A DNA stretch of 36,906 bases from Candidatus Blautia faecavium (GTDB lineage Bacteria > Bacillota > Clostridia > Lachnospirales > Lachnospiraceae). Location: contig DWYZ01000131.1 of NCBI GenBank assembly GCA_019118425.1, positions 1 through 36,906 on the forward strand, read 5' to 3'. The first letter of the stretch is position 1. Each line of letters opens with the position of its first letter. Below, one piece after another: positions 12,117 to 32,852 of this stretch. The position numbers and the translations under genes are program-made. Under the pieces are notes generated by a model that was given only the letters and a program-made list of their open reading frames with translations, was not told the DNA's origin and searched no databases.

Positions 12117-12380
12117 CAGGAAAATGGCGAGGAAGAAGAGGAGTAGATGAATGTCCCTGACAGAGAAGGAAATCCGCTGGCTGGAAGGTTTCCCCAGGAA
12201 GAGGTCATTGAAGGTAGCTTTGGAGCCGGGAGGCTGATGGCAGACGCAGTAGGCTTTCACGTAATCCTGCGTTAAAGGAAAAGAGATGTACGGGAGAAGA
12301 ACGACGTCCTTATTTCTCGTATAATGAAGGTGGTACCGCGGTAAAATTCGCCCTTCACACGCTGGTGTGAGGGGCTTTTC
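12117..12380 (+). promoter_or_regulatory. T-box riboswitch, valine (GUA specifier)
   Basis: The conserved T-box sequence AAGGTGGTACCGCGG lies at 12327-12341, and the terminator helix GCCCTTCACAC / GTGTGAGGGGC (12350-12375) is followed by TTTT. The upstream part shows the usual stem I features, including AGGAGTAGATGA and CTTTGGAGC. GTA at 12214-12216, in the context GAAGGTAGCTTTGGAG, is the likely specifier and is a valine codon, which agrees with the gene downstream. Uncharged tRNA-Val would base-pair with both the specifier and the T-box and prevent termination. The specifier position is read by eye. Confidence 0.93.
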
Positions 12381-28644: not shown

Positions 28645-29592
28645 ATGTCTTTTTCAGGGATGGTGAAAGAAGAACTTTCCGGGCAGATCGGCACAGGGCT
28701 TCACTGCCGGATCGCAGAAACAGCAGCGCTTTTGAGTGCCTGCGGAAAGATAACGGCTGAAGGCACGCTTCGTTTTCAGACAGAAAATGAGTCAGTTCTA
28801 AGAAAATACTTTACATTGCTGCAAAAAACCTTTAATATAAAGACAGAAATCTCTGTCCGTGAAAATAATCATCTGAAAAAGGGAACGGTGTATTTTATTG
28901 AACTGTCCGATTCTGAACAGGTCCAGGCTGTTCTTCAGAGTACGAAGCTGAAAAGGGATGGAGAAAACGGAGAAACCTTATCCTTTTGCAACGCGCTGGT
29001 CACGCAGCAGAGTTGCTGCAAGAGGGCGTTTATCCGTGGAGCTTTTTTAGCGTCCGGTTCCATAAGCGATCCCAGAAAGAGCTATCATTTCGAAGTCGTG
29101 TGTCAGGACGAAAAGAAAGCAAAACAGCTTCAGGAGATCATTCGCAGTTTTCAAGTCGATGCAAAGATCGTCCTGCGTAAGAAATCATATGTGGTCTATG
29201 TGAAGGAAGGCGCACAGATCGTAGATATGCTGGCGGTCATGGAGGCGAACGTAGCATTGATGGACCTGGAAAACATCCGCATACTGAAAGAAATGAGAAA
29301 TTCAGTAAACCGGAAAGTAAATTGTGAAACTGCAAATATCAATAAGACGGTGAATGCGGCAGTAAAGCAGATGGAAGACATTAAGCTGATCCAAAGGACG
29401 ATAGGTTTTGAAAGCCTGAACGAGGGTCTTGCCCAGATTGCAGAATTGCGGCTGCAGTATCCGGAATCTACACTAAAAGAATTAGGTTTAATGTTGGTCC
29501 CGCAGGTTGGCAAATCAGGTGTGAACCATCGCCTGCGTAAGCTGAGCGAGATCGCAGATGGACTGCGGGAAAACAAGGAGGAGTTATTATGA
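28645..29592 (+). CDS. whiA: DNA-binding protein WhiA
   Basis: 315 residues. The N-terminal part is the LAGLIDADG-like homing-endonuclease-derived fold (FSGMVKEELS, FIRGAFLASGSISDPRKSYH), and the C-terminal part is the WhiA helix-turn-helix with LLVPQVGKSGVNHRL-type sequence LMLVPQVGKSGVNHRLRKL. WhiA regulates sporulation septation in actinomycetes and cell division and chromosome segregation in Firmicutes. AGGAGAGG is 8 bases upstream of ATG. The stop overlaps the HPr-like gene by ATGA. Confidence 0.96.
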   Translation: MSFSGMVKEELSGQIGTGLHCRIAETAALLSACGKITAEGTLRFQTENESVLRKYFTLLQKTFNIKTEISVRENNHLKKGTVYFIELSDSEQVQAVLQSTKLKRDGENGETLSFCNALVTQQSCCKRAFIRGAFLASGSISDPRKSYHFEVVCQDEKKAKQLQEIIRSFQVDAKIVLRKKSYVVYVKEGAQIVDMLAVMEANVALMDLENIRILKEMRNSVNRKVNCETANINKTVNAAVKQMEDIKLIQRTIGFESLNEGLAQIAELRLQYPESTLKELGLMLVPQVGKSGVNHRLRKLSEIADGLRENKEELL

Positions 29593-31070: not shown

Positions 31071-32111
31071 ATGTCCAGATTTTTAAAATTTATCGTACAT
31101 TTTATCGTGATATGTACAGTGCTGTGTGTAGTCGCCCTGGTGGCGCCGCCTTTCTGGGGGATCACCACAGTCATTGTGGATAATACAGAGAAAGAAACAA
31201 ACCTTCCCTTAGGTTCTGTTACTTATGCCATCCCAGTAGATACAGAGGATGTGAGCATCGGAACATCTATCCTGGTGCAGAACGGCGGACAGACCTACCG
31301 CTATAACATTGCCTCCCTGGATCTGGAAAACGGAACAGGAACTGTGGTAGATCCCACGAATCCTGAGGGAGAAGCTCTTCCGGTATCGGTAAAGAATAAA
31401 GTTCCCCAGGTAGTAGTGACAGTAGGACTTATAGGATATTTGTTTGTGGCTACGGAAAGTATTGAAGGTCTGATCATATTAGGATTGGCTGTTCTTTTCT
31501 TGGTTATCCTCTATATCATAGCAGAGCTGTGGAAAAAGGAACCGGCTGGAGAAGCTGCCGATGAAGACGGAACATACATTAAAAGTAAGAAAGAACTTAA
31601 ACGTGAAGAAAAAGAACGGGCCCGCCGGATGAAGGAAGAGGATAAACAGCTGCTTCGGGAAGACAAAGCACGCAGAAAGCAGGAGAAAAAGGATCGTAAG
31701 GTTATCCGCACAGGCGGCTTTGTTGATGAAGTGTATGAAGATGATTTTTCTGACGAAGAGGCAGATGAGACTCCAGTGACAGAGGTGCAGAACGCTACCA
31801 GCGAAGCTCATGAGCTGCTGAAAAAAGAAATCGCCGCCACTACGGCAGACGAGACCTCTTCTGAGCAGGGAGAAGAGTTGGCAGAAGCAGCTGCTCAGAT
31901 ATCTCAGCCAGAAGAAGAACCAGAGCTTTCGGAGGAACCGGCAGAAATCAAAAAAATGGCAATTCCATTGTGGTCAGCCGCCCAGCTTGCCGATAAGGCA
32001 AAACAGGAAGGTGATGCGCCGGATATCGTAAAGGACGGAATAACAAATGTTACACTTTTTGACTACTCCGATATCATCAGCGGAGAGGAAGCTACAGAAG
32101 TAGAACAGTAA
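31071..32111 (+). CDS. Membrane protein resembling an inactive SipW-type signal peptidase, with charged tail
   Basis: 346 residues. A first membrane helix (about 8-27) is followed by an extracellular beta-rich domain (about 31-120), a second helix (about 132-152) and a cytosolic tail of almost 200 residues, first strongly charged with Lys/Arg/Glu, then acidic. The domain LPLGSVTYAIPVDTEDVSIG ... YNIASLDLENGTG ... VVVTVGLIGYL follows the order seen in SipW-type signal peptidases. The expected SMEPT is replaced by NTEKETN (no Ser), and the general-base His/Lys region reads TYRYNI. I therefore infer a non-catalytic homologue. Fold assignment is by eye. AGTGAGGAA precedes the ATG; the gene stands just upstream of the S10 operon with its own terminator. 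Confidence 0.75.
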   Translation: MSRFLKFIVHFIVICTVLCVVALVAPPFWGITTVIVDNTEKETNLPLGSVTYAIPVDTEDVSIGTSILVQNGGQTYRYNIASLDLENGTGTVVDPTNPEGEALPVSVKNKVPQVVVTVGLIGYLFVATESIEGLIILGLAVLFLVILYIIAELWKKEPAGEAADEDGTYIKSKKELKREEKERARRMKEEDKQLLREDKARRKQEKKDRKVIRTGGFVDEVYEDDFSDEEADETPVTEVQNATSEAHELLKKEIAATTADETSSEQGEELAEAAAQISQPEEEPELSEEPAEIKKMAIPLWSAAQLADKAKQEGDAPDIVKDGITNVTLFDYSDIISGEEATEVEQ

Positions 32112-32123
32112 AGAAGAGATACA

Positions 32124-32151
32124 GGGCAGCCATAGGCTGCCCTTTGTTTTT
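32124..32151 (+). terminator. Terminator before the S10 operon
   Basis: GGGCAGCC-ATA-GGCTGCCC, a perfect 8-bp stem, followed by TTTGTTTTTT. Confidence 0.93.
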
Positions 32152-32195
32152 TGGAGAATTGTACGAGAAAAAAAACAAAAAAATAAAAAAAACCC

Positions 32196-32224
32196 TTGCA
32201 AAGGGGAAAAACATTGTGTATACT
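32196..32224 (+). promoter_or_regulatory. S10 operon promoter
   Basis: TTGCAA (32196-32201), 17 bases, TATACT (32219-32224). Transcription near 32231 leaves a leader of about 220 nt before rpsJ. Confidence 0.78.
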
Positions 32225-32230
32225 AACAGA

Positions 32231-32451
32231 TGCTGTGACATGATAGCTGTGAAGCGCGAGGTTGCTGTCGAAAGACAGGTTTTCCGTGGAGCGAATGTCA
32301 AGTTAGGGAAACTGACGACAAGTCACTGTACAAGTTCAGAAGACCATCTAGGGATGGGCGTGTGGAAAGATGTCTTAGGACACACACGGAGATGTGTACA
32401 GTCGCCGCTTGTCGTACTGATAATGAGTACGAATAGGAGGAGACTTTTTTT
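32231..32451 (+). promoter_or_regulatory. Structured leader RNA of the S10 operon
   Basis: Nothing codes here. CTGTC-GAAA-GACAG (32265-32278) is a GNRA-loop hairpin. A long stem pairs ACGACAAG (32315-32322) with CTTGTCGT (32408-32415) and, after an internal loop, ACTGTACA (32325-32332) with TGTACAGT (32395-32402). It encloses CCATC-TAGG-GATGG (32344-32357) and CGTGTG/CACACG (32359-32388), a three-way junction. A separate hairpin CGTACT-GATAATG-AGTACG (32413-32431) uses three bases of the long stem and ends 3 bases before AGGAGG. Mutually exclusive folds and closeness to the ribosome binding site suggest autoregulation by an S10-operon protein; that is inference. Confidence 0.7.
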
Positions 32452-32769
32452 ATGGCAAATCAGGTAATGAGAATCACATTAAAAGCTTATGATCATCAGT
32501 TAGTAGATGCATCTGCAGCTAAAATCATCGAAACTGTTAAGAAGAACGGCGCTAAGGTAAGCGGCCCGGTTCCGCTTCCTACTAAGAAAGAGGTTGTAAC
32601 CATCTTAAGAGCGGTTCACAAATATAAAGATTCCAGAGAACAGTTCGAGCAGAGAACCCATAAGAGACTCATTGATATCCTGACACCAACCCAGAAGACA
32701 GTAGATGCACTTTCCAGACTGGAAATGCCGGCTGGTGTTCACATCGATATCAAGATGAAGACGAAATAA
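32452..32769 (+). CDS. rpsJ: 30S ribosomal protein S10
   Basis: 105 residues, with the usual [20 protein letters not shown] start, [17 protein letters not shown] and [20 protein letters not shown] blocks. S10 is part of the small-subunit head and also the NusE partner of NusB. It is first of the operon. The ribosome binding site AGGAGGAG at 32435-32442 is followed by a run of T before the ATG. Confidence 0.98.
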
Positions 32770-32852
32770 GTAAGGTAGCAATGCCCGTGAGGGTGTTTCA
32801 TAAAAGTATATGATTGCCGGAAACGGTAATCCGCTATAAGGAGGAAGAAAGA

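Follow-up and report, generated by a model that had tools for sequence, protein, structure and literature searches.

Making ribosomal proteins, many of which are encoded in the S10 operon, is a large cost to the cell; how this operon might be controlled in Lachnospiraceae, which are common in the gut, is the question raised by the DNA before rpsJ in Candidatus Blautia faecavium. The window is the whole stretch analyzed, 36,906 nucleotides of contig DWYZ01000131.1 (GCA_019118425.1), and the S10 operon lies at its end in the order S10-L3-L4-L23-L2, with further ribosomal genes to S3 (ribosomal Pfams). The sigma-70-like promoter pattern before rpsJ (Table 1) was matched 2 times in 32100-32800 against 1.3 expected in shuffles. 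Transcription probably starts near 32231, and the position of the promoter thus gives a leader of approximately 220 bases. A strong terminator-like hairpin was identified at 32123-32143, just upstream of the S10 promoter and 3' of an ORF (31071-32111, 346 aa) without a Pfam match.

We propose, with moderate confidence, that 32231-32451 combines a ribosomal-protein leader of the S10-Clostridia type with an expression platform peculiar to Lachnospirales, and that it acts by autoregulated attenuation. At the level of sequence, an architecture of core stems P1 and P2, junction stems PA and PB, an alternative hairpin at 32400-32445, and a U7 tract is supported.

Table 1. Features of the S10 operon leader, in window coordinates
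Feature	Coordinates	Strand	Basis or remark
Sigma-70-like promoter, TTGCAA-17-TATACT	32196-32224	+	Pattern match only
Putative ligand-binding core, RF03136 (whole model)	32241-32321	+	cmscan
P1 of core, including GAAA-loop hairpin 32265-32278	32254-32287	+	RF03136 alignment
P2 of core, 32296-32299/32317-32320 and 32302-32305/32313-32316	32296-32320	+	RF03136 alignment, swap test
PA outer stem, 5' arm ACGACAAG	32315-32322	+	Perfect pairing with 32408-32415
PA outer stem, 3' arm CTTGTCGT	32408-32415	+	Read from sequence
PB inner stem, 5' arm ACTGTACA	32325-32332	+	Perfect pairing with 32395-32402
PB inner stem, 3' arm TGTACAGT	32395-32402	+	Read from sequence
Junction hairpin 1, varies among relatives	about 32344-32357	+	MFE fold
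Junction hairpin 2, 3' end is the widely kept ACACACGG	about 32359-32388	+	MFE fold
Start-site hairpin, terminator-like, holds Shine-Dalgarno	32400-32445	+	Folding energy, relatives
Start-site hairpin base	32400-32403/32442-32445, followed by 32405-32406/32439-32440 and 32408-32410/32435-32437	+	
Start-site hairpin top	32413-32418/32426-32431	+	
Shine-Dalgarno AGGAGG, in hairpin 3' arm	32435-32440	+	Read from sequence
U7 tract, hairpin to AUG	32445-32451	+	Read from sequence
rpsJ (ribosomal protein S10), first operon gene	32452-32769	+	PF00338 match

The first-pass annotation recognized no described leader class in this RNA, which does not hold for the upstream half: the S10-Clostridia leader RF03136 was matched at 32241-32321 by cmscan (87.7 bits against a cut-off of 35.1, model positions 1-81/81), and the Firmicutes S10 r-leader is already published, as available text of PMC7247131 states. 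A match to a known Rfam leader, which the annotation had held would count against it, thus applies to this half, and nothing in Rfam covers the rest, with no further family reaching its gathering score in the leader beyond RF03136. The GAAA-loop hairpin that had been read upstream is present and forms the tip of P1. Compensating changes were identified in both core stems: in P1 by mutual information, where 2 of its pairs rank first and second over all leader columns, and in P2 by a swap test, where its arms pair better than swapped arms (z -5.8). The match lies upstream of rpsJ in the window, and rpsJ was present at 283 of the 286 fetched RF03136 loci, which were the best-scoring matches per search and not a random sample. 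The free fold uses a helix P0 that pairs UGACAU near 32236 and AUGUCA near 32295; this helix was dropped at a swap z of 0.17. As a sign of rRNA mimicry, such as that of the 23S L4 site in the L4-type leader of Escherichia coli, primary-sequence similarity to 16S and 23S rRNA was sought in 5 leaders and was not above shuffles (orientation of the 23S locus unconfirmed by motif). Since the model stops at 32321, within the outer stem PA, most of the junction and the start-site hairpin lie outside RF03136, and the remaining 130 bases before rpsJ constitute a second conserved module.

Relatives were compared in an alignment of 218 selected loci, 214 of them unique, with 65 class- and phylum-search loci left out, including the order-level L146. 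The T5 subset comprised 205 of these 214 leaders, and an alignment of 119 was taken from it, with every fourth of the first 116 and all 89 later ones (mostly order-level). In the swap test, own arms were compared with arms swapped between sequences, using 51-87 unique arm pairs from the 214 leaders with relatedness retained; anchors were misplaced in L259, L261, and L272. Among 22 control pairs of non-partner segments, 17 fell within 2 sd, and the others were the hairpin-top 5' arm with the hairpin-base 3' arm (-3.4), the PA 5' arm with the hairpin-top 5' arm (-2.8, a segment that includes part of the PA 3' arm), an upstream segment with the PA 3' arm (-2.5), the PB 5' arm with the hairpin-top 5' arm (-2.2), and the P2 5' arm with the hairpin-top 3' arm (+3.1). 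An earlier swap test with 168 leaders was mostly negative (hairpin base z -0.9, PA -1.2, PB -0.8, hairpin top -4.4); the test became positive after 40 extra order-level loci were added and a MAFFT alignment was used to re-anchor the arms. When all columns were ranked by mutual information, a single pair of the 3' module, in the hairpin top, came among the 70 best (rank 57), the module being hardly ranked because it varies too little.

Both 8-bp distant pairings read in the first pass are perfect, and the 2 hairpins within the inner stem were seen in the MFE fold. The sequence 32231-32455 folds at z -2.42, with 3 of 200 shuffles equally stable. Pairs of this junction fold (ON in the mechanism proposed below) are standard in 91.0% of cases across the 119 leaders (116 distinct), against at most 48% when the partner is slid by 1-3 columns, and 15 cells changed on both sides, compared with 5.6 in shuffles. 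The ON covariation score was reached by 69 of 500 shuffles, and the fold slid by +2 gave 30 both-side cells against 15 for the true register, so that by this count the junction is supported more by its pairing than by double changes. The swap test returned z -5.6 for PA and z -6.5 for PB, and compensated PA variants were identified in L203 and L273. By eye, 2 order-level leaders (L249 and L257) carry GCGAGTAG as the PA 5' arm, with 2 mismatches to an unchanged 3' arm, and keep PB and the hairpin.

As the competing fold, the annotation had proposed a 6-bp hairpin next to AGGAGG that excludes the outer stem. This hairpin exists (the hairpin top in Table 1) but has only 3 bases in common with the outer stem, an overlap that by itself makes for weak exclusion. 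The conserved hairpin is longer: it takes in the entire PA 3' arm, 3 PB bases, and AGGAGG itself, and it ends on a U7 tail; the first pass had missed both the Shine-Dalgarno sequence within it and this tail. With the tail, it folds at -19.7 kcal/mol (z -4.39), a stability that 0 of 200 shuffles reached; the stem adjoining U7 has 4 bp followed by a mismatch, and 5 of the 6 Shine-Dalgarno bases are paired. Exactly 7 T were found in 177 of the 214 aligned leaders, and the local hairpin energy had a median of -17.9 in the 205 leaders with T5, 4 of them being weaker than -8. The predicted structure resembles intrinsic terminators in being a stable hairpin with a U tract directly after it, and differs from them in its imperfect stem (single mismatches), in containing the Shine-Dalgarno sequence, and in lying directly 5' of the AUG. 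A simple terminator scan did not have it among the 4 sites listed; the consensus of that scan calls for a stem without interruptions, 3 or more G-C pairs, and a loop of 3-8.

Pairs of the alternative fold (OFF, comprising P2 and the start-site hairpin) are standard in 91.4% of cases over the 119 leaders, with slides at 59% or below. Both-side cells numbered 66, compared with 26.4 in shuffles and at most 29 in slides, and no shuffle reached the covariation score; 32 of these cells fall in 1 P2 pair, which is unpaired in 36 other leaders, and 34 in the hairpin. The hairpin alone was 96.8% paired in 61 canonical leaders, where slides did not exceed 56%; both-side cells numbered 9, while shuffles gave 0.8 and slides 7 at most. 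These 61 leaders were the alignment for the hairpin-module covariance model R1, drawn from 172 unique leaders with omission of 21 hand-listed divergent or long-hairpin loci and of spans >75 bases, and their counts therefore lean to the canonical form. In the swap test, the hairpin top gave z -8.2 and the hairpin base z -3.1. The latter is weak by itself, since 5 of the 22 controls lay beyond 2 sd, and the base accordingly draws chiefly on single compensated variants: AGGAC/GUCUU (L195), AGCC/GGCU (L199 and L274), AGGG/CUCU (L204), CAGUC/GGCUG (L205 and others), and GUU/AAC (L279), as well as L208 and, by eye, AGUUGCC/GGCGGCU (L214) and L203. Whereas a lack of covariation had been named as the result that would speak against a regulatory fold, the compensating changes observed give good support to the hairpin and more modest support to the junction. 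The mismatch at 32404/32441 also changes on both sides: most leaders have A opposite C (or G), and L001, L027, L021, and L082 have G opposite A, with exceptions including L139, L140, and L189; it is possibly a non-standard pair under selection.

We searched for the core and the hairpin module in overlapping family, order, class, and phylum samples. RF03136 was identified (E <= 0.001) in 279 of the 299 genomes that represent the window's family (279 over the cut-off), 113 of 146 of the order sample (104 over the cut-off), 165 of 291 of the class sample (128), and 122 of 299 of the phylum sample (70). R1 matched 270 of the 299 family genomes, once in each except for 1 genome with 2 matches, and 12 of the 291 class-sample genomes, all within the window's order. 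In 5 genomes (G210, G123, G145, G231, and G191), the RF03136 and R1 matches adjoin, as judged by eye. The DNA from core to ATG is strikingly similar in family and most order-level loci, reading GACAAG-TCACTGTAC ... GTGTACAGTCACC-CTTGTCGTAC ... GTRCGAAAAGGAGG-GACTTTTTTT-ATG. Among the 80 matches listed from a pattern scan of named genomes (at least 118 stretches), 75 lie at rpsJ by tblastn, 4 reach a contig end where the start of rpsJ can be seen, and 1 is too short to tell. Among 243 leaders, a run of at least 5 T precedes the ATG in 118 of the 120 family loci (those up to L123) and in 56 of the 123 later loci.

Beyond the order, the core was found with other sequences downstream. A terminator-like hairpin inside the leader was identified in 24 of 34 scored class-search loci, compared with 23 of 102 shuffles (5 loci without a found core; the order-level L146 is included, and the count is 23 of 33 without it). 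It often has the form ACCCGG...CCGGGT, 75-105 bases before the ATG. By eye, the P2 3' strand also appears linked to the upstream terminators of other Clostridia. Among phylum-search loci, 3 of 23 scored had such a hairpin (3 loci without core; L164 and L180 are class-level), and 17 of 23 have 50-99 bases from the P1 motif to the ATG. The core thus seems to be joined to different outputs by lineage, as far as these small, best-scoring samples indicate. Order-level loci L255, L264, L265, and L276 have RF03136 followed by other DNA up to rpsJ and are without the canonical start-site hairpin; they are other platforms within the order. The motif ACACCCGG was found in 33 of 38 class-level leaders with a loose pattern (for example L143, L149, L154, and L236), 27 of them with GTGT after it, and also at loci without the start-site hairpin; it is perhaps a second contact site.

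The 2 folds compete for shared strands. P2 excludes PA because its 3' strand overlaps the PA 5' strand, and PA excludes the start-site hairpin, which spans the PA 3' arm. The proposal of mutually exclusive folds before the S10 operon therefore stands, with both folds conserved at the pairing rates given above for the 119 leaders. When the window transcript was folded as far as 32415, its MFE structure was the junction (-63.0, and -56.4 with P2 forced); once extended to 32451, the transcript preferred the hairpin state (-69.6 vs -65.2). With P2 forced on the full window transcript, PB persists in the MFE structure (-68.1), and a fold with the complete hairpin is a little less stable (-67.3). 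Across relatives, the MFE of the partial transcript has the junction in 182 of 205 leaders; when full leaders fold freely, the hairpin base appears in 88 of 205 MFEs and PB is retained in 140, from which we regard the pair as bistable. Forcing P2 could be scored in 180 leaders, 25 being skipped for non-standard outer P2 pairs at the anchors. Taken at the best of 4 positions, the hairpin base went from 0.44 to 0.65, with an increase in 129 leaders and a decrease in 8, and PA fell from 0.38 to 0.10, at a cost of approximately 2 kcal/mol. By the stricter 4-position mean, the hairpin base rose from 0.38 to 0.58, increasing in 129 leaders and decreasing in 9, and in the window from 0.59 to 0.90.

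Such a strand exchange could operate as follows. Once RNA polymerase moves off the promoter, the core would fold first and the junction next, holding strands that the hairpin requires, so that polymerase would read through into rpsJ (ON). Excess operon protein would bind the core and stabilize P2, and P2 would capture the strand of PA and weaken the junction. The hairpin could then form on U7, and transcription would end just before the AUG (OFF). In any transcript that escaped, the same hairpin would pair AGGAGG and could also reduce initiation. For the ligand, L4 is a guess by analogy with Escherichia coli, and S10 itself is another. The first-pass suggestion of a ribosomal-protein or other ligand-binding autoregulatory RNA is supported to this extent: exclusive, conserved folds at the S10 operon fit a ribosomal-protein leader.

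The alternative that fares best, one we nevertheless consider unlikely, is a switch of translation only, in which the hairpin gates AGGAGG, U7 is an unstructured spacer, and there is no termination signal. The pairing of most Shine-Dalgarno bases within the hairpin agrees with it, a hairpin that hides a Shine-Dalgarno sequence can have an imperfect base, and the short distance from P1 motif to ATG in most phylum-search loci leaves little room for a terminator. A plain spacer could equally contain A, however, and the tract is all T, mostly of exactly 7. Further, the predicted pairing of the Shine-Dalgarno sequence stays flat when P2 is forced (mean 0.57 vs 0.58, 180 leaders) while the base adjoining U7 shifts, so that the output under switch control is more likely to be termination than simple sequestration, and the terminator-like hairpins of class-level loci indicate that termination would suit the family.

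A conserved leader with a fixed constitutive role, such as mRNA stability or ribosome standby or loading, and without a ligand switch, appears improbable. Conservation is so strong that few changes can be read, as such a role would allow, but 2 incompatible folds are both kept in relatives, where 1 fixed fold would need no second, and the leader family that includes the upstream half is taken as ribosomal-protein-binding (PMC7247131). Still slightly less credible is an S10-NusB (boxA-type) or NusA system acting here instead of an operon protein that binds the core directly: S10 is NusE, and, according to PMC10931766, suhB is repressed by boxA-bound NusB-NusE in E. coli and NusA aids L4 attenuation of the E. 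coli S10 operon, but the 2 folds alone would explain the conservation of the 3' module.

The reading as an attenuating ribosomal-protein leader can be set beside described systems. Eckert and Weinberg (2020) added many Clostridia examples to the Firmicutes S10 r-leader, described earlier (Yao 2007), according to part of PMC7247131. The window shares with this leader the fit to the whole 81-position model upstream of rpsJ and, judged on the Rfam model, differs in having most of its junction, the start-site hairpin, and U7 beyond the model's end. In E. coli, parts of PMC10931766 describe L4-controlled attenuation together with translation control and a terminator in the S10 leader. The operon is the same and the leader is predicted to act on transcription in the window as well, whereas the E. 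coli L4 site is reported there as conserved only in some gammaproteobacteria, which sets the 2 apart by description, and the window's terminator-like hairpin sits on the Shine-Dalgarno sequence. A 2024 survey (PMC11109978, in part) lists an rpsJ motif, RLC-47-1, from 3 Peptostreptococcaceae genera with 87 representatives; by its description, to which our comparison is limited, this is likewise a structured 5' UTR of rpsJ in Clostridia and a ribosomal-leader candidate. Sections of PMC2965389 and PMC4342826 describe no leader of such type, and the present module was not found among published titles and abstract openings on S10 or rpsJ leaders. Within that scope, the leader family is known, and we found no published description of the expression platform.

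The Rfam model would cover the likely sensor only, and the second module would supply a concrete output; this suggests that the RF03136 family could be extended by approximately 130 bases in Lachnospirales. Tentatively, and at somewhat less than even confidence, we propose that a single hairpin serves as both transcription terminator and Shine-Dalgarno lock right before the AUG, run by strand exchange among P2, the junction stem, and the hairpin, which Lachnospirales joined to an older ribosomal-protein-binding core. Other Clostridia would have joined upstream terminators to this core, and distant Bacillota would have it almost directly 5' of the ribosome-binding site. The locus may then be a case of 1 sensor RNA joined to different output devices, with platforms exchanged by lineage.

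Other observations concern the wider window. The whiA gene was identified at 28645-29592, approximately 3 kb upstream of rpsJ, with an HPr gene after it. WhiA is possibly of interest for the S10 operon, as a 2024 Mycoplasma WhiA paper has the word rpsJ 78 times (PMC11701221). A T-box leader was identified at 12121-12358, directly 5' of a 909-aa ORF at 12367, by RF00230 (107 bits, above the cut-off of 93).
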